From assembly GCA_003224055.1 (NCBI GenBank), contig QHYE01000057.1, forward strand, positions 1 through 46,973: DNA of 46,973 bases. Reading direction: 5' to 3'. Of this stretch, positions 40,178 through 46,973 are shown piece by piece (position 1 is the first letter of the stretch; each line of letters starts with the position of its first letter). The position numbers and the translations under genes were made by a program. The notes beneath the pieces are model-generated. The model was not told where the DNA came from, searched no databases, and worked only from the letters and a program-made list of their open reading frames with translations. Origin of the DNA: Acidobacteriota bacterium. Its GTDB lineage: Bacteria; Acidobacteriota; Terriglobia; Acidiferrales; UBA7541.

Positions 40178-41125
40178 ATGAATGCAATCACGTGGGAAAA
40201 AAATAAGCTCGGATTTATCGGAGTCGGCTACATGGGCCGGCCGATTGCGCAGAGGTTGCTTGAATCCGGCTTCAAGCTGACCGCTTATGACCGCAACCGC
40301 GGCAAGGCGGAGGAGTTAGTTCGATACGGCGGTACCGTCGCGGAAAGTGTTGCGGGCCTTTCCTCCAGTTGCAACGTTGTGTTGTCGTGCCTTCCGAGCG
40401 ACGAAACTGTCCTGAACGTTTACAAAGAACAGGACGGCGTATTCGCCAATGCGCATCGCGGCTCACTGGTCATCGACCTAAGCACGGTGTATCCCGAGAC
40501 CTCGCAAGAACTCTCGAGACTAGGTTCAGAGCGGGGAGTTGAGGTTCTCGACGTGACTATATCGGGGAGCACTCCTGCCGCCGAAAGGGGGTTGCTGACT
40601 TTGTTCGGCGGTGGTGACAAAGCATGTTTTGAGGCCGCTGAGCCGATTTTTCGCGCGATCGCGCAGAAGTATTTTTATCTGGGGCCGAGTGGTTCCGGAG
40701 CGACGATGAAGCTTGTGGCGAACACCCTGCTGGGAATTGGAATGCAGGCGATTGCCGAAGCCGTCGCACTCGGTGAGAAGGCTGGACTTGATCGCAATCG
40801 CTTGCTCGATGTGTTGTCCCAGACTGCGGTGGTTGCTCCAGCGCATATGGGCAAACTGCAAAGAGCGATGAAGAGCGACTACAGCCCGCAATTTCCGTTA
40901 AGGCTCATGAACAAGGATTTCGGGTTGATTCTCAATCTCGCGGCTGCCGTTGGCGCGCGAATGCCCGCAGCGGGAGCTGCTTTTGAGATCAATGCGAGGC
41001 AATCGGACGAAGGAGCGGAGCAGGATTTTTCGGCGGTGATTCTGCGGATGGAAAAGGAAGCCCATTTGGATTTTACGGGCGAAGGGCGGATTCGAAAAAT
41101 TGCAAATAAGGGAGGTCAATCATGA
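40178..41125 (+). CDS. NAD(P)-dependent beta-hydroxyacid dehydrogenase
   Basis: 315 residues of the 3-hydroxyisobutyrate/tartronate-semialdehyde/GLYR family. Rossmann motif LGFIGVGYMGRPIAQRLL (11-28), substrate loop DVTISGSTPAAERG (the DxxxSGG-like motif, with a variant SGST), catalytic Lys in GSGATMKLVANTLLG, and NKDFGLIL in the C-terminal domain. It may reduce aldehydes such as succinic semialdehyde or oxidise beta-hydroxyacids. It overlaps the next gene by 4 bases (ATGA), so the two form an operon. Confidence 0.92.
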   Translation: MNAITWEKNKLGFIGVGYMGRPIAQRLLESGFKLTAYDRNRGKAEELVRYGGTVAESVAGLSSSCNVVLSCLPSDETVLNVYKEQDGVFANAHRGSLVIDLSTVYPETSQELSRLGSERGVEVLDVTISGSTPAAERGLLTLFGGGDKACFEAAEPIFRAIAQKYFYLGPSGSGATMKLVANTLLGIGMQAIAEAVALGEKAGLDRNRLLDVLSQTAVVAPAHMGKLQRAMKSDYSPQFPLRLMNKDFGLILNLAAAVGARMPAAGAAFEINARQSDEGAEQDFSAVILRMEKEAHLDFTGEGRIRKIANKGGQS

Positions 41126-42000
41126 ACAAGAAAGAGCTTTCTGCAAGTGGGGCTGGAGACGTTTCGCTCGGCGAGGAAATTTCTGTGCATCGTCTCGGAT
41201 TCGGGGCGATGCGCCTAACCGGCGAAGGCATCTGGGGGGCGCCAAGAGATCGCCAAGGAGCGTTAGCGGTTCTTCGCCGAGCCGTGGAGCTTGATATCAA
41301 TTTCATTGATACCGCGGATTCTTACGGGCCAAACGTAAGCGAGGAACTCATTGCCGAAGCGTTGTTTCCTTACCCGGCTGGCCTTGTGATTGCCACCAAG
41401 GGAGGCTGGAACCGTCCCGGCCCGAATCAGTGGACCCACGATGCAACCCCCTCGCACCTTCGCAAGGCAGTCGAGGGGAGCCTGAAGAGACTACGCTTGG
41501 ACCGCATCGACGTTTATCAACTGCACATTCCGGACCCTGTCGTCTCGTTTGAGGCATCGGTGGAAGCCCTGGCTCGGATGCGAAAGGAAGGCAAGATTCG
41601 CCTGGTCGCGTTGTCCAACGTCACACAAGAGCACATCGAGCGAGCGCGTAGAATCGTTCCTATCGTCTCCGTGCAGAACCGCTATAGTTTTGCCGACCGC
41701 GAATGGGACTACGTGGCGGATTATTGTGAGCGCAATGAAATTGCTTTTATTCCCTGGTTCCCACTGGGGGCAGGCAAAGTTGCCGGCGAGGTGCTCAATC
41801 GAATCGCGCAAGCACGCCGTGCGAGCCCCACGCAAATAGCGCTGGCCTGGCTCCTGCGGCGATCCCCCATTATGCTGCCCATCCCAGGGACTTCCTCGAT
41901 CGAACATCTCGAGCAGAACGTTGCGGCCGCTTCCCTGCGCCTAGCCGAGGAAGAATATAAACAGCTCTCTCGCGTTCCCGAGCTGGTGGCATCACGGTGA
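41122..42000 (+). CDS. Aldo/keto reductase
   Basis: 292 residues. Tetrad Asp63, Tyr68 (DTADSYGP), Lys93 (IATKGGW) and His135 (YQLHIPDP); the C-terminal PIPGTSSIEHLEQN binds NADPH. Starts inside the stop of the dehydrogenase gene (ATGA) with GGGAGG six bases upstream. The pair could detoxify or interconvert carbonyl compounds under one regulator. Only loosely similar to the aldo/keto reductase at 80-1072. Confidence 0.93.
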   Translation: MNKKELSASGAGDVSLGEEISVHRLGFGAMRLTGEGIWGAPRDRQGALAVLRRAVELDINFIDTADSYGPNVSEELIAEALFPYPAGLVIATKGGWNRPGPNQWTHDATPSHLRKAVEGSLKRLRLDRIDVYQLHIPDPVVSFEASVEALARMRKEGKIRLVALSNVTQEHIERARRIVPIVSVQNRYSFADREWDYVADYCERNEIAFIPWFPLGAGKVAGEVLNRIAQARRASPTQIALAWLLRRSPIMLPIPGTSSIEHLEQNVAAASLRLAEEEYKQLSRVPELVASR

Positions 42001-42052: not shown

Positions 42053-43216
42053 TTACCATGCGACGCACGGCAAGCCTTCCGGAGGGAGCGTCACGGCAGG
42101 CCCTTCTACGAATTTCCCAGTACGCGCAGGAGCGGATCGCACCGGTGCCGCCGGTTCGAGGCAGCGAGCCGGCATCGCAAGATCTTCGCCTTCTCGAATG
42201 AAAGTCAGGCGGTCCCGACTGTGATCCCAATCGATGTAGACCAAGTCGCCAGGATGTACTTGATCCGTGGCAAGCAGATTGGCAAGAGGAGAGACAACAT
42301 GGCGCTCAATGGCCCGCTTGAGATGCCGCGCACCATAGCGCTGGTCCGTACCTTCCTGAAGTAAGAATTCCCTGCCCGGACCTGTTACCCGAAGGAGAAA
42401 TTGTCCCTTGGCAGTTTCGAATACTCGCTGCTGGACCTGAGCCAGCTCGATCTCCAGAACTTGTTCCAAGTGATCCCTCCGCAAGGGGTGAAAAACAACC
42501 ACCTTGTCCAGGCGGTTCATGAATTCGGGCGAAAATTTGCGCCGTGCAGCTTCTACGGCGGCACGCTTCACCTTCAGGTCCAATCCCGTAACGGGCTTAT
42601 CGTTTGGCTGAACGAAGCCCATCCCGCCGCTCATGAGTTCCGAGATTTCGCTCCCACCCAGATTGGAGGTCAGGAAAATAACCGTCCGGGACAAATCTAC
42701 ACGGCGATTGTCGCCCAAAGTCAAAGTCGCCTTGTCCAGCATGCCCAGCAGAAGCTGCCATAGAGCATCGGAAGCCTTTTCAATCTCGTCAAACAGCAGG
42801 AACGACAGCTTCAACTTATCCGTGTGGCTCTGTGCCAAGGCTTCCTGGGTGATAAGAGGATGTGTTTCACGATGACCTAAATAGCCCGGAGGTGAACCGA
42901 TCAGCTTGGCAATTTCGTGGGAATGCTGAAATTCGGCGCAATCCACCTTAATTACCGCGCTGGCATCACCGAAGAGAATCTCCGCGGCCGCTTCGACAAC
43001 ACGCGTTTTGCCCGATCCGGTGGGCCCCAAGAACAACAGGTTGCCGACTGGCCGTCCCTGCGAGTTCAATCCGGCGCAAAAGACCTGATGTAGGTCCACC
43101 AGCGCCTGAACTCCTTCTTCCTGCCCGATGATCTTGGCCCGCATGGAACCGTGGAAGTCACGTGTTACCTTGCTGCGGATTGTCAGGTCCAATTGCTGTC
43201 TGGCCGCGGCTCTCAT
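42053..43216 (-). CDS. Solitary ClpB-D2-like AAA+ ATPase
   Basis: 387 residues equal to one AAA+ module of the ClpA/B type plus the D2-small domain. Walker A is GPTGSGKT (64-71), the pore loop SPPGYLG (108-114), Walker B LLFDE (140-144) with EIEKA. A sensor-1 segment FLTSNLGG follows, then the arginine-finger region FSPEFMNRLDKVVVF and a sensor-2 segment TDQRYGARHLKRAI. The N-domain, first AAA domain and ClpB middle coiled coil are absent, as is a ClpP-binding loop of ClpX type. ATG at 43216 has GGGAGG seven bases upstream. Probably an oligomeric unfoldase; partner unknown. Preceded by a sigma-54-type promoter. Confidence 0.88.
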   Translation of the reverse strand: MRAAARQQLDLTIRSKVTRDFHGSMRAKIIGQEEGVQALVDLHQVFCAGLNSQGRPVGNLLFLGPTGSGKTRVVEAAAEILFGDASAVIKVDCAEFQHSHEIAKLIGSPPGYLGHRETHPLITQEALAQSHTDKLKLSFLLFDEIEKASDALWQLLLGMLDKATLTLGDNRRVDLSRTVIFLTSNLGGSEISELMSGGMGFVQPNDKPVTGLDLKVKRAAVEAARRKFSPEFMNRLDKVVVFHPLRRDHLEQVLEIELAQVQQRVFETAKGQFLLRVTGPGREFLLQEGTDQRYGARHLKRAIERHVVSPLANLLATDQVHPGDLVYIDWDHSRDRLTFIREGEDLAMPARCLEPAAPVRSAPARTGKFVEGPAVTLPPEGLPCVAW

Positions 43217-43268
43217 TTCGTGCCTCCCTGCGTCCGGCCCCCGGCGGGCGAGACTCAACCTTTGACAA

Positions 43269-43284
43269 TGCATGGGTAGTGCCA
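43269..43284 (-). promoter_or_regulatory. Sigma-54-type promoter of AAA+ gene
   Basis: On the minus strand TGGCACTACCCATGCA matches the -24/-12 consensus, with GG and GC exactly 10 bases apart. Transcription would start near 43258, leaving a leader of about 42 nt before the ATG at 43216. An enhancer-binding activator would be required; none is encoded in the window. Confidence 0.6.
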
Positions 43285-43385
43285 TTCCTTTAGCGACGAA
43301 ATGCGATTGAAAACCGCGCAAAGTGGTTTGTTTGGGGATATTCCTCGGGCAGAGATGCTGGCTATGCGTTGACACTGTCACGCGG

Positions 43386-43455: not shown

Positions 43456-44643
43456 ATGCCTAGTTCCAATCCTCTTCTGTGGCCCAGGCCGCCTGTAACT
43501 TGGGGCTATGGGATTGCGGTTCTATCGGTCATCGCAGCACTGATCATTTCACGGTGGCCGGCGCTTCATTTGCAAGATGCTCCCGTGTCGCTGTTTCTTT
43601 GCGCCGTCATATTAAGCGCGTGGTTCGGTGGAGCCGGGCCGGGATTGCTCGCTACCGCTCTATCCGCTTTCGCCTTCTACTATTACTTCCTGCCTCCGAT
43701 CTATTCCTTGGGTGCAAAGCCCGGGGAGATCCCACGCTTTCTCGTGTTCACGGTGTCAGTCTTGTTTGTCGGGTCGCTGAGCGCTGCACAAAGGAGCGCC
43801 ATGGAATCGCTTCGGCGCGCCCGCGATGACCTGAAAGAGACAGTTCAAGAGCTCCAGAGAACCAACGAGGCGTTGCAAGCAGAAAGTCGGGAACGCAAGC
43901 GGGCGGAAGAGGCTTCGCGCCAGGCGCAGGCGGATCTAGCGCACGTCAGCAGGGTGACCACCATGGGAGAGCTGACTGCCTCCCTGGCGCACGAAGTGAA
44001 CCAACCGATTGGCGCCGCCGTCACCAACGCCAACACCTGCATTCGCTGGCTGGCGCGCGACACCCCAAATGTGGAAGAAGCGCGCGCGGCGGCCATGAGA
44101 AGCGCGAAAGACGGAATGCGTGCGGCGGAAATCGTCAGCCGGATTCGGCTGCTCTTCAAGAAGGGTACTCCGCAACGGGAGTTCGTAGACATAAACGAAG
44201 TCGTTCGAGAGATGATCGTCCTCCTGCGCGGCGAGGCGACGCGACACAACATATCCGTCCGGACAGAGCTGGCGGCAGAGCTTCCCCCGGTCCTGGGAGA
44301 TCGCGTGCAATTGCAACAGGTGTTGATGAACCTCATGCTCAATGGCATGGATGCGACGAAGGATGTGGATGGGACGCGGGAGCTCGCTATCAAGTCGCAG
44401 CGAGCGGAAAACGAGCAAGTTGTGGTGACCGTCAGCGATACTGGAGTGGGGCTGCCCGCGCAGCAGGCGGACCAGATCTTTAAGGCGTTCTTTACCACCA
44501 AGCCTCACGGCACGGGTATGGGACTCTCCATCAGCCGGTCGATCGTTGAGTCGCATGGCGGCCGCCTGTGGGCTACCGACAACTCTCCGCGCGGAGCCAG
44601 TTTTCATTTCGCCCTGCCCACCAAAGCCGAGGCAAAGGAATGA
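43456..44643 (+). CDS. DUF4118-type sensor histidine kinase
   Basis: 395 residues. Residues about 15-110 hold four membrane helices of the DUF4118 (KdpD-like) type, including AWFGGAGPGLLATALSAFAFYYYFLPP. A coiled coil follows (about 115-160), then the dimerisation/phosphotransfer helix with His179 in SLAHEVNQPIG, and the ATPase domain (NLMLNGMDA, SDTGVGLP, GTGMGLSISRSI). No receiver or regulator is adjacent. Bases 43942-44107 are identical to 46808-46973 in the next kinase. Confidence 0.92.
   Translation: MPSSNPLLWPRPPVTWGYGIAVLSVIAALIISRWPALHLQDAPVSLFLCAVILSAWFGGAGPGLLATALSAFAFYYYFLPPIYSLGAKPGEIPRFLVFTVSVLFVGSLSAAQRSAMESLRRARDDLKETVQELQRTNEALQAESRERKRAEEASRQAQADLAHVSRVTTMGELTASLAHEVNQPIGAAVTNANTCIRWLARDTPNVEEARAAAMRSAKDGMRAAEIVSRIRLLFKKGTPQREFVDINEVVREMIVLLRGEATRHNISVRTELAAELPPVLGDRVQLQQVLMNLMLNGMDATKDVDGTRELAIKSQRAENEQVVVTVSDTGVGLPAQQADQIFKAFFTTKPHGTGMGLSISRSIVESHGGRLWATDNSPRGASFHFALPTKAEAKE
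43942..44107 (+). repeat. Direct repeat copy 1 (kinase core)
   Basis: 166 bp with no mismatch to copy 2 at 46808-46973 (offset 2866). It covers the histidine-phosphotransfer helices. Bases just upstream differ (GATCTAGCGCAC versus GATCTCGCACAC), so the left edge of identity is sharp. The right edge lies outside the window for copy 2. Confidence 0.95.
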
Positions 44644-44734
44644 ACTCTGCAGACGCTCGCTGGTATCAGGGAGACGGTTAGTTTCTAATTGAAGCGCGGC
44701 GCGACTGTTCCGCGCGGCAACCGGATGGAGTCAC

Positions 44735-46973
44735 ATGGCTGCCGTGAACTTGATTGGCTCGTACAACTACCCACTCGTGGCGCTTTCGGTGTTGATCGCC
44801 ATCTTTGCGTCATACGCTGCTCTGGATCTTGCAGGTCGTGTAACGGCCACAAGCGGTCGGACTCGGGCGGTTTGGCTGCTGGGCGGGGCCGGCGCGATGG
44901 GGACTGGCATTTGGTCCATGCACTACATTGGGATGCTGGCCTTCATCCTACCGATTCCTGTGGCCTACCATTGGCCAACCGTTCTGCTGTCACTGTTTGC
45001 GGCCATTCTCGCTTCGGTCGTTGCGCTGGGCGTGGTGAGCCGGCGGAAAATGGGTTGGTTCCGAGCGCTCGTCGGAAGTGTCCTGATGGGTGCGGGTATT
45101 GCAAGCATGCATTACATCGGCATGGCCGCCATGCGTTTACCTGCCATATGCCAGTTTAATTCCTTTCTCGTTGTCCTGTCCGTCGTGTTCGCGGTTCTGA
45201 TTTCTCTCGCCGCGCTGTGGATTACCTTTCACTTCCGACATGAGAAAACGGGGATCGGGTGGGAAAAGTTAGGCGGAGCCGTCGTGATGGGTGCCGCGAT
45301 CCCCGTCATGCATTACACCGGCATGGCTGCCGCCAGTTTCACCCCCTCCGGCATGCCGACGGACCTGTCCCATGCCGTGAGCATCTCCACGATTGGTACC
45401 GCCGGAATTGCCGCCGCCACCTTTATCGTCCTCGGGCTGGCTCTGCTGACGTCCTTGGTGGATAGGCGATTCGCTGCCGAGATCTTGGAACTGCAGGAAG
45501 AGAAGCTGCAGCGAAGCGAGGCGTACTTGGCGGAAGCGCAGAGGCTCACGCATACGGGGAGTTGGGCCTGGCGGGTGACGGGAAGAGACGTCTTGCATGT
45601 GTCCGAGGAATGGTACCGCATATATGGCTTCGATCCAGAAAAGGGCATGCCGGGTTGGGAAGAACGGCTCCGGCGCGTTCATCCAGAGGATCGAGCCAAG
45701 TGGCAACGGGCAATCGATCGAGCAATCGGTGAGAAGTCGGGTTACCAAGTGGAATTCCGAATCCTTCTTCCGGACGGCACGGTCAAATACATCCACACCG
45801 TCGGCCATCCTGTTTTGAACGCATCCGGGGATTTAGCGGAATTCGTGGGTAGCGCGACGGACATCACCGACCGAAAACGGGCCGAGGTGCTGCTGGCCGG
45901 GGAGAAACGGCTTCTCGAGATGATAGCCAGGGGCGATTCTCGCGCTCTCATCCTCGAGGGCGCATGCCGGCTCGTCGAAGAACTGGCCAGCGGTTCTCTG
46001 TCTTCGATACTTCTGTTGGACCCGAGCACCAACTGCCTTCGGCACGGCGCAGCGCCCAGCCTGCCAATAAACTACGCTGAGGCAATCGATGGTTTGGTCA
46101 TCGGTGCGTCTGTGGGTTCGTGTGGGACGGCCGCTTACCGGGCACAGCCAGTGATCGTCTCAGATATCGCCACTGATCCGCTGTGGGCCGATTTCCGCGA
46201 TCTAGCGTTGGCGCATGAGCTGCGCGCGTGCTGGTCCACGCCGATACTTTCCTCAACAGGCAGGGTGTTAGGGACCTTCGCGACCTACTATCGCGAAGCG
46301 CGTAGCCCCAGTTCGCAAGAGCATAATGTCGTAGAGCGGATCACCCATCTTGCGAGTATAGCCATCGAGCGCAAGCAGGCGGAAGAGAAGCTGCGGCAGA
46401 GCGAGGCCTATTTAGCGGAAGCCCAGCGGATGACCCGGAGTGGAAGTTGGGCTTGGAACGTGCGTACAGGTGCTGTCTTCTGGTCGCAAGAGACCTTTCG
46501 CATTTATGAATGTGACCCCGAGAAAACTATCCCCTGTTGGTCGTTCATTCTCGAAAGGGTCCACCCGGAGGATCGGTCAGGAGTCGAGCAGAGAGCAAAA
46601 AGGGAGTCCACACGAAAGGACATGCTGAATTCCGAGGGTGATTTTCGAATTGTTTTTCCGGACGGAAGGATAAAGCACCTTCACTCTATTGCTCACCCTG
46701 TGATGAATGAGGCGGGCGAGATCATCGAAGTTGTCGGCACCACCATGGACATCACCGAGCGCAAGCTAACGGAAGAGGCGCTTCGTCAGGCGCGGGCGGA
46801 TCTCGCACACGTCAGCAGGGTGACCACCATGGGAGAGCTGACTGCCTCCCTGGCGCACGAAGTGAACCAACCGATTGGCGCCGCCGTCACCAACGCCAAC
46901 ACCTGCATTCGCTGGCTGGCGCGCGACACCCCAAATGTGGAAGAAGCGCGCGCGGCGGCCATGAGAAGCGCGA
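44735..46973 (+). CDS. MHYT-PAS-GAF-PAS sensor histidine kinase (3' end outside window)
   Basis: Open from the ATG at 44735 (GGAG four bases upstream) to the window end, 746 codons without a stop. The N-terminal membrane part carries three MHYI/MHYT motifs (62-65, 125-128, 192-195), the repeat of MHYT sensor domains thought to bind copper and sense O2, CO or NO. PAS1 lies at about 260-375, GAF at about 385-545 and PAS2 at about 556-672. Each PAS is introduced by SEAYLAEAQR and an [L/M]T(H/R)(T/S)GSWAW segment, a sign of internal duplication. The phosphotransfer His is residue 708. The ATPase domain must lie beyond the window. It follows the DUF4118 kinase by 91 bases. Confidence 0.9.
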   Translation, partial: MAAVNLIGSYNYPLVALSVLIAIFASYAALDLAGRVTATSGRTRAVWLLGGAGAMGTGIWSMHYIGMLAFILPIPVAYHWPTVLLSLFAAILASVVALGVVSRRKMGWFRALVGSVLMGAGIASMHYIGMAAMRLPAICQFNSFLVVLSVVFAVLISLAALWITFHFRHEKTGIGWEKLGGAVVMGAAIPVMHYTGMAAASFTPSGMPTDLSHAVSISTIGTAGIAAATFIVLGLALLTSLVDRRFAAEILELQEEKLQRSEAYLAEAQRLTHTGSWAWRVTGRDVLHVSEEWYRIYGFDPEKGMPGWEERLRRVHPEDRAKWQRAIDRAIGEKSGYQVEFRILLPDGTVKYIHTVGHPVLNASGDLAEFVGSATDITDRKRAEVLLAGEKRLLEMIARGDSRALILEGACRLVEELASGSLSSILLLDPSTNCLRHGAAPSLPINYAEAIDGLVIGASVGSCGTAAYRAQPVIVSDIATDPLWADFRDLALAHELRACWSTPILSSTGRVLGTFATYYREARSPSSQEHNVVERITHLASIAIERKQAEEKLRQSEAYLAEAQRMTRSGSWAWNVRTGAVFWSQETFRIYECDPEKTIPCWSFILERVHPEDRSGVEQRAKRESTRKDMLNSEGDFRIVFPDGRIKHLHSIAHPVMNEAGEIIEVVGTTMDITERKLTEEALRQARADLAHVSRVTTMGELTASLAHEVNQPIGAAVTNANTCIRWLARDTPNVEEARAAAMRSA
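46808..46973 (+). repeat. Direct repeat copy 2 (kinase core), runs to window edge
   Basis: Identical over all 166 visible bases to 43942-44107. Identity at synonymous positions shows recent duplication or gene conversion rather than protein-level constraint. Confidence 0.95.

Follow-up and report, generated by a model that had tools for sequence, protein, structure and literature searches.

Homogenised transmitter cores in neighbouring FixL-type kinases with unrelated sensors: probable gene conversion at an acidobacterial locus

The kinase locus and its surroundings

The stretch of DNA considered here (the window) comprises bases 1–46,973 of a 50,903-base contig from an acidobacterial genome assembly of 4.53 Mb in 136 contigs. 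At its 3' end lie two neighbouring histidine kinase genes, A and B (Table 1), which share a transmitter block but have unrelated sensor halves, DUF4118 in A and MHYT-PAS-GAF-PAS in B; on this point Pfam agrees with the first-pass annotation, which had been made from the letters only. In kinase A, DUF4118 occupies residues 18–121, HisKA 170–236 (27.7 bits, against a cut-off of 26.9) and HATPase_c 281–390 (86.8 bits); no Pfam PAS match was found in it at E 0.001, whereas B and C have PAS domains. The contig was earlier thought to end at base 46973, which is not the case: 280 N (46974–47253) directly follow the window, and beyond them kinase B resumes and reaches its stop near contig base 47481, followed by a gene for a solute-binding protein and by a third kinase, C. 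The latter is a HAMP-PAS-HisKA-HATPase_c protein (HisKA 34.2, HATPase_c 45.4 bits) that lies 5 kb downstream and runs off the contig end at base 50903. Pfam reported neither HisKA nor HATPase_c for kinase B, since the gap cuts its core.

Table 1 Features of the kinase locus and of other genes in the window
Feature	Position	Strand	Basis or remark
Receiver and HD domain protein (HD-GYP-like)	1149–2264	−	Only receiver detected on the contig
Dehydrogenase-like and aldo/keto-reductase-like genes	40178–42000	+	Synteny anchor upstream of the kinases
ATPase with AAA_2 and ClpB_D2-small domains	42053–43381	−	Adjoins kinase A
Kinase A, DUF4118 membrane sensor and FixL-type transmitter, complete, 395 aa	43456–44643	+	ORF, Pfam
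Kinase A sensor half (DUF4118), orthologous to first kinase of related loci	43456–43890	+	Amino acid identity
Kinase A transmitter core: linker, DHp and ATPase domain	43891–44643	+	Block common to B and C
Identical tract, kinase A copy	43942–44107	+	166 bases; H codon 43990–43992
Kinase B 5' part, MHYT-PAS-GAF-PAS sensor and transmitter start	44735–46973	+	ORF, Pfam
Kinase B MHYT membrane sensor region	44735–45580	+	Pfam MHYT
Kinase B PAS-GAF-PAS span	45593–46753	+	Pfam residues converted to bases
Kinase B PAS	45593–45853	+	Pfam
Kinase B GAF	45950–46369	+	Pfam
Kinase B second PAS	46433–46753	+	Pfam
Kinase B transmitter core, 5' part	46757–46973	+	Cut by gap from contig base 46974
Identical tract, kinase B copy	46808–46973	+	166 bases; H codon 46856–46858

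The best solved matches of kinase A are FixL fusions (4gcz_A, E 4e-49, residues 140–392). The entries 4gcz, 8a3u and 8a7f range from E 4e-49 to 6e-49, and the next one, 9jfj (1.7e-28), is about 1e20 times worse. Since these fusions match A from residue 140 onward, the shared block is, by similarity, a FixL-type transmitter with its linker, and it is only the transmitter that we assign to FixL. No further DNA-level copy of the core was found in the genome outside A, B and C, and the nearest other kinase of this genome has 35% amino acid identity to A. A search of the assembly for the missing end of kinase C found no other DNA copy either.

The two genes 5' of kinase A, starting at 40178 and 41122, we take to be dehydrogenase-like and aldo/keto-reductase-like. 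Between them and kinase A, on the other strand, an ATPase gene is found in which no match to an N-terminal Clp domain was detected.

An identical tract at the edge of the assembly

The perfect identity of 166 bp claimed for A and B was recovered in full (166/166 bases, synonymous sites included), and it does span the phosphotransfer histidine, as the H codon (CAC) of the motif SLAHEVNQP lies within both copies. The enclosing block of 217 bases (43891–44107 and 46757–46973; 94% identical) is the sole direct-repeat family detected in the window at a minimum length of 30 and a seed of 20. When polymorphic columns were shuffled, with a break placed at the gap, a run as long as that between A and B appeared in 5 of 100,000 shuffles, and the length of the run is not due to chance. 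It is also the longest exact run among 91 related cores (15 same-locus and 4080 other pairs). Run length alone is nevertheless no proof of conversion, since similar shuffles gave small p values for several between-genome control pairs as well, for example for the second copies of loci L063 and L064 (p 0.0006; in this version of the test the A/B run passed over the gap, at which the 100,000-shuffle version breaks). Run-length (GENECONV-like) shuffles were for this reason dropped as proof of conversion.

On the right, the boundary of the tract coincides with the limit of the known sequence and is not a measured end of identity. Past the gap, for which homology with A predicts a size of 306 bases that would keep B in frame, kinase B is identical to C over 110/110 bases, as far as the contig extends. 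Thus both perfect stretches abut assembly breaks, the one of 166 bases at the 280-N gap and the one of 110 bases at the contig end. With N following the first stretch and B equal to C up to the contig end, the length of 166 appears to be set by the assembly, as a lower bound or a graph boundary rather than a biological length. Extension of the contig, proposed as a way of finding where identity ends, does lead past 46973, but the gap hides that end. Between A and B, 217/231 bases (94%) agree after the gap and homology stops at the stop codon; A and C agree at 543/633 bases. Both assembly breaks, the gap as well as the contig end, are located inside transmitter cores.

This position raises the suspicion, voiced already in the first-pass annotation, that the end of B was extended with A sequence, and its 3' end with that of C, so that the identity would be chimeric. 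The coincidence of both exact stretches with breaks is what such an artefact would produce, and the contig is indeed broken exactly there. However, an assembler would have no cause to break at or mix copies that differ at 1 base in 10, and real exact repeats exceeding the assembler's word length would probably cause just such breaks. Furthermore, A and B are 94% identical over the 231 bases outside the exact tracts, where they are also sisters (SH-aLRT 99), and a related locus without any N, L067, has the same homogenisation. We consider an artefact unlikely.

Relatives carrying the kinase pair

A core match at E 1e-60 was obtained in 35 of 151 genomes, and among the 89 genomes of the family the MHYT region occurs in 19 (E 1e-60) and the DUF4118 region in 12 (E 1e-25), the window's own genome being counted each time. 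The MHYT region is 86–90% identical in seven other genomes, with the next best at 69%, and by this measure the seven form a clear orthologue group. A locus scan retained 76 loci, mostly from acidobacterial MAGs, and in five of them (L060, L062, L063, L064 and L067) a DUF4118 kinase is followed by an MHYT kinase. The sensor of kinase A has 81–82% amino acid identity to its counterparts in L060, L063, L064 and L058 and 68% to that in L067; for the MHYT region of B the values are 85–90% (L060, L063, L064, L067). The two genes upstream of A recur together 5' of the DUF4118 kinase in L063, L065 and L066, and the second of them, the reductase gene, recurs alone in L060 and L064.

These relatives bear on the possibility that one kinase was recently duplicated in tandem and that one copy then captured a different sensor. 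Passages of two papers (PMC8895600, PMC4603909) treat domain shuffling as the usual explanation for the diversity of sensors among kinases, and L066, where the second kinase is of PAS-PAS type and stands apart behind two opposite-strand genes, could be an example of it. For the window a recent duplication is very unlikely, as orthologous DUF4118 and MHYT sensors stand in the same order in the five loci mentioned, which makes the window pair older than the likeness of its cores. Of the two processes that the annotation had offered, conversion or domain shuffling, fresh shuffling therefore fits less well, and its description of the process as being in progress holds only insofar as identity is complete in one part of the core and 94% elsewhere in it.

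Cores and flanks with different histories

The DNA identity between the cores of A and B is 94%, as compared to 80–81% between A and the first-kinase cores of L058, L060, L063 and L064, which are 88–92% identical among themselves. The two copies of L067 share 89% with each other and 70–80% with the other cores tabulated. Slow evolution of a constrained transmitter that tolerates no change could be considered, and some identity runs do recur between genomes. It is hardly credible for the window, where synonymous sites are identical too and where the orthologous first-kinase cores of these four loci differ from A at 19–20% of the bases.

In a tree of 67 cores, A and B group together (support 100/99) and are joined by C (99/96), the pairs of L067 and of L066 are each recovered with 100/100, and the first-kinase cores of L058, L060, L063 and L064 form a clade of their own (100/100). 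Placing A in this first-kinase clade by constraint was rejected (AU p 1.7e-5), as was placing L067 copy 1 there (1.5e-6), and uniting all six first-kinase cores was rejected as well (p 0.001). Grouping with the MHYT cores of L060, L063 and L064 was likewise rejected for B (AU p 1.1e-63) and for L067 copy 2 (2.0e-6); the clades used in the AU tests were chosen after the identity table had been seen. The three MHYT reference cores are themselves not united in the best tree (AU p 0.077), so that orthology of the second-kinase cores is less clean.

A comparison of divergence from L064 separates the cores from their surroundings. For the DUF4118 sensor, DNA identities to L064 are 85% (window), 85% (L060) and 84% (L063), for the MHYT sensor 92, 91 and 89% in the same order, and for the reductase gene 85% (window) and 83% (L063). 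The first core, in contrast, is at 80% in the window and at 90% in both L060 and L063; the second core is less odd than the first, with 80% against 82 and 87%. Thus, on these identities, the sensors and the flanking gene diverge as orthologues should and the first core of the window does not. With core 1 ten points further from L064 and the sensors and reductase normal, core 1 is most likely the one that was replaced, by B or C. That paralogous cores are closer than orthologous ones, while the flanks follow orthology, was found both for the window and for L067.

Separate trees were also made for three segments of the core, for the window from the first 217 and the last 227 bases, as the middle of B falls in the gap. 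A and B are sisters in both (SH-aLRT 99 each). For L067 the two copies pair as sisters with a support of 100 in both the middle and the last segment; the best tree of the first 217 bases separates them, although sisterhood is not rejected there (AU p 0.40). The L066 pair is recovered in each of the first two segments (99 each), and for the last segment the held tree was better than the free tree. Tract boundaries would thus differ between loci, as fits conversion tracts.

Frequency of homogenisation

Among 91 cores, two copies from the same locus are each other's nearest row in 3 of 13 multi-core loci (the window, L066 and L067), and the other ten loci are not homogenised. Same-genome pairs on other contigs were mutually nearest in none of 16 cases. 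The difference leans, weakly, towards an effect of nearness, in a set of loci picked by likeness to A. Homogenisation is not general among tandem kinase loci, and in L058, L060, L063 and L064, which are orthologous to the window locus or partly so, cores that are only 77–79% alike precede one regulator. Homogenisation thus seems not to be needed for sharing a regulator.

Ten further stretches yielded one more tandem pair, L212, which was left out of the 13-locus count. Here another core is followed by an MHYT kinase and two receiver ORFs, and the cores, with 490 identities, 151 mismatches, 6 gaps and a longest run of 29, are not homogenised. Two N are present within the first core of this pair (L212:5701–5702).

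A regulator predicted from gene order

The first-pass annotation held that the repeat implies one shared regulator and expected it downstream. The repeat does not imply this, since in four orthologous loci clearly divergent cores also stand in front of one regulator. On this contig, which ends inside kinase C, no FixJ-type regulator adjoining the kinases was found, and the only receiver domain lies 42 kb away in the HD-domain protein. Among the relatives, 8 of 10 loci with two same-strand cores have two successive kinases without a receiver between them, then a FixJ-type regulator directly 3' of the second kinase and, after it, a lone receiver; in the remaining two the regulator stands between the kinases (L078) or one follows each kinase (L124). 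The eight include all five DUF4118/MHYT pairs, each of which is thus followed by a single FixJ-type regulator and a single lone receiver. The regulator ATG overlaps the kinase TGA in 6 of 8 loci checked (L058, L060, L062–L065). In L060, L066 and L067 the regulator was confirmed to combine a receiver with a GerE domain; for L060 the lone receiver was confirmed too. Because two opposite-strand genes lie between the kinases of L066, that pair is not one transcription unit. A narrow rule, by which a FixJ-type ORF had to stand where the last core ends, was satisfied by 15 of the 76 loci and not by 52, while 9 ended too soon; in some of the 52 the regulator lies upstream or is part of a longer ORF that escaped the rule.

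Close relatives of the two L060 regulators were not found in the assembly of the window genome, where the best matches have 33 and 35% amino acid identity. As these regulators are kept at 71–90% and 70–98% identity among eight relatives, they are taken to be unassembled rather than absent. We predict them to lie 3' of kinase C, beyond the end of the contig, and gene order in relatives makes it likely that A and B share one regulator.

Proposed course of events and known systems

Ectopic gene conversion quite probably homogenised the cores of the tandem kinases A and B, with C also involved, and left the sensors in place; conversion as the mechanism is what we infer from comparison of sequences. 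A and B would be neighbouring FixL-type kinases with unrelated sensors, long arranged in tandem. Their homologous transmitter halves would have recombined and the cores thereby become homogenised within this genome, kinase C taking part, and the sensors, which share no homology, would have been left untouched. Copying was probably mostly from B or C into A. Going by gene order in relatives, both kinases would pass their phosphoryl groups to a single FixJ-type regulator, encoded 3' of the last kinase, and several inputs would feed one output.

A wider role can be envisaged, although we regard it as doubtful: conversion could keep unrelated sensors wired to one output, with transmitter copying restoring the match after the surface of the regulator has drifted. 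If this were true, the locus would be a sensor array with a common engine that is updated by recombination.

The arrangement resembles FixL-FixJ in that the best solved matches of the transmitter are FixL and in that a receiver plus LuxR/GerE regulator adjoins the last kinase in relatives. FixL-FixJ has one haem-PAS kinase, whereas here two or three kinases have DUF4118, MHYT or HAMP-PAS inputs, and a lone receiver follows the regulator in relatives. Convergence of several kinases on one regulator is known from KinA–KinE, which act on Spo0F, and from NarX and NarQ, which act on NarL. There, too, different inputs are joined to related transmitters and one regulator (predicted for the present locus, where sharing is probable); unlike in those systems, the transmitters here are nearly identical, apparently by recent homogenisation, and the genes adjacent.

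Gene conversion acting on a two-component gene is reported for ntrX of Ehrlichia ruminantium Senegal (PMC9937504). In that case the gene encodes a response regulator and the segmental duplication is inverted; here conversion would concern the transmitter halves of tandem kinases whose sensors differ. Among the matches listed, conversion between kinase transmitters was not found in titles and abstract beginnings of open-licence PMC papers; neither DUF4118 together with MHYT nor Acidobacteria with FixJ and kinase domains was found in the open-licence PMC literature.

The event is taken to be real and of an ordinary kind, that is, recombination between tandem paralogues, situated at an assembly break. 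If so, such loci provide a natural series of transmitter swaps between unrelated sensors, made at the linker that protein engineers use, as well as the chance to compare one orthologous locus with and without homogenisation, and it could be tested with them whether recombination, besides point mutation, sets the partnership of kinase and regulator. They also carry a warning, since kinases of this kind are places where assemblies break and windows end.

Cores with 64–80% amino acid identity to A were seen in nine further loci (L068, L080, L101, L069, L081, L090, L104, L116 and L125), which include MAGs labelled Rokuibacteriota, Gemmatimonadetes, Alpha- and Deltaproteobacteria and Caulobacteraceae. 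The cores of L068 (Acidobacteria) and L080 (Rokuibacteriota) have 95.7% DNA identity, and the occurrence of such cores under distant labels may reflect mis-binned contigs or recent transfer.
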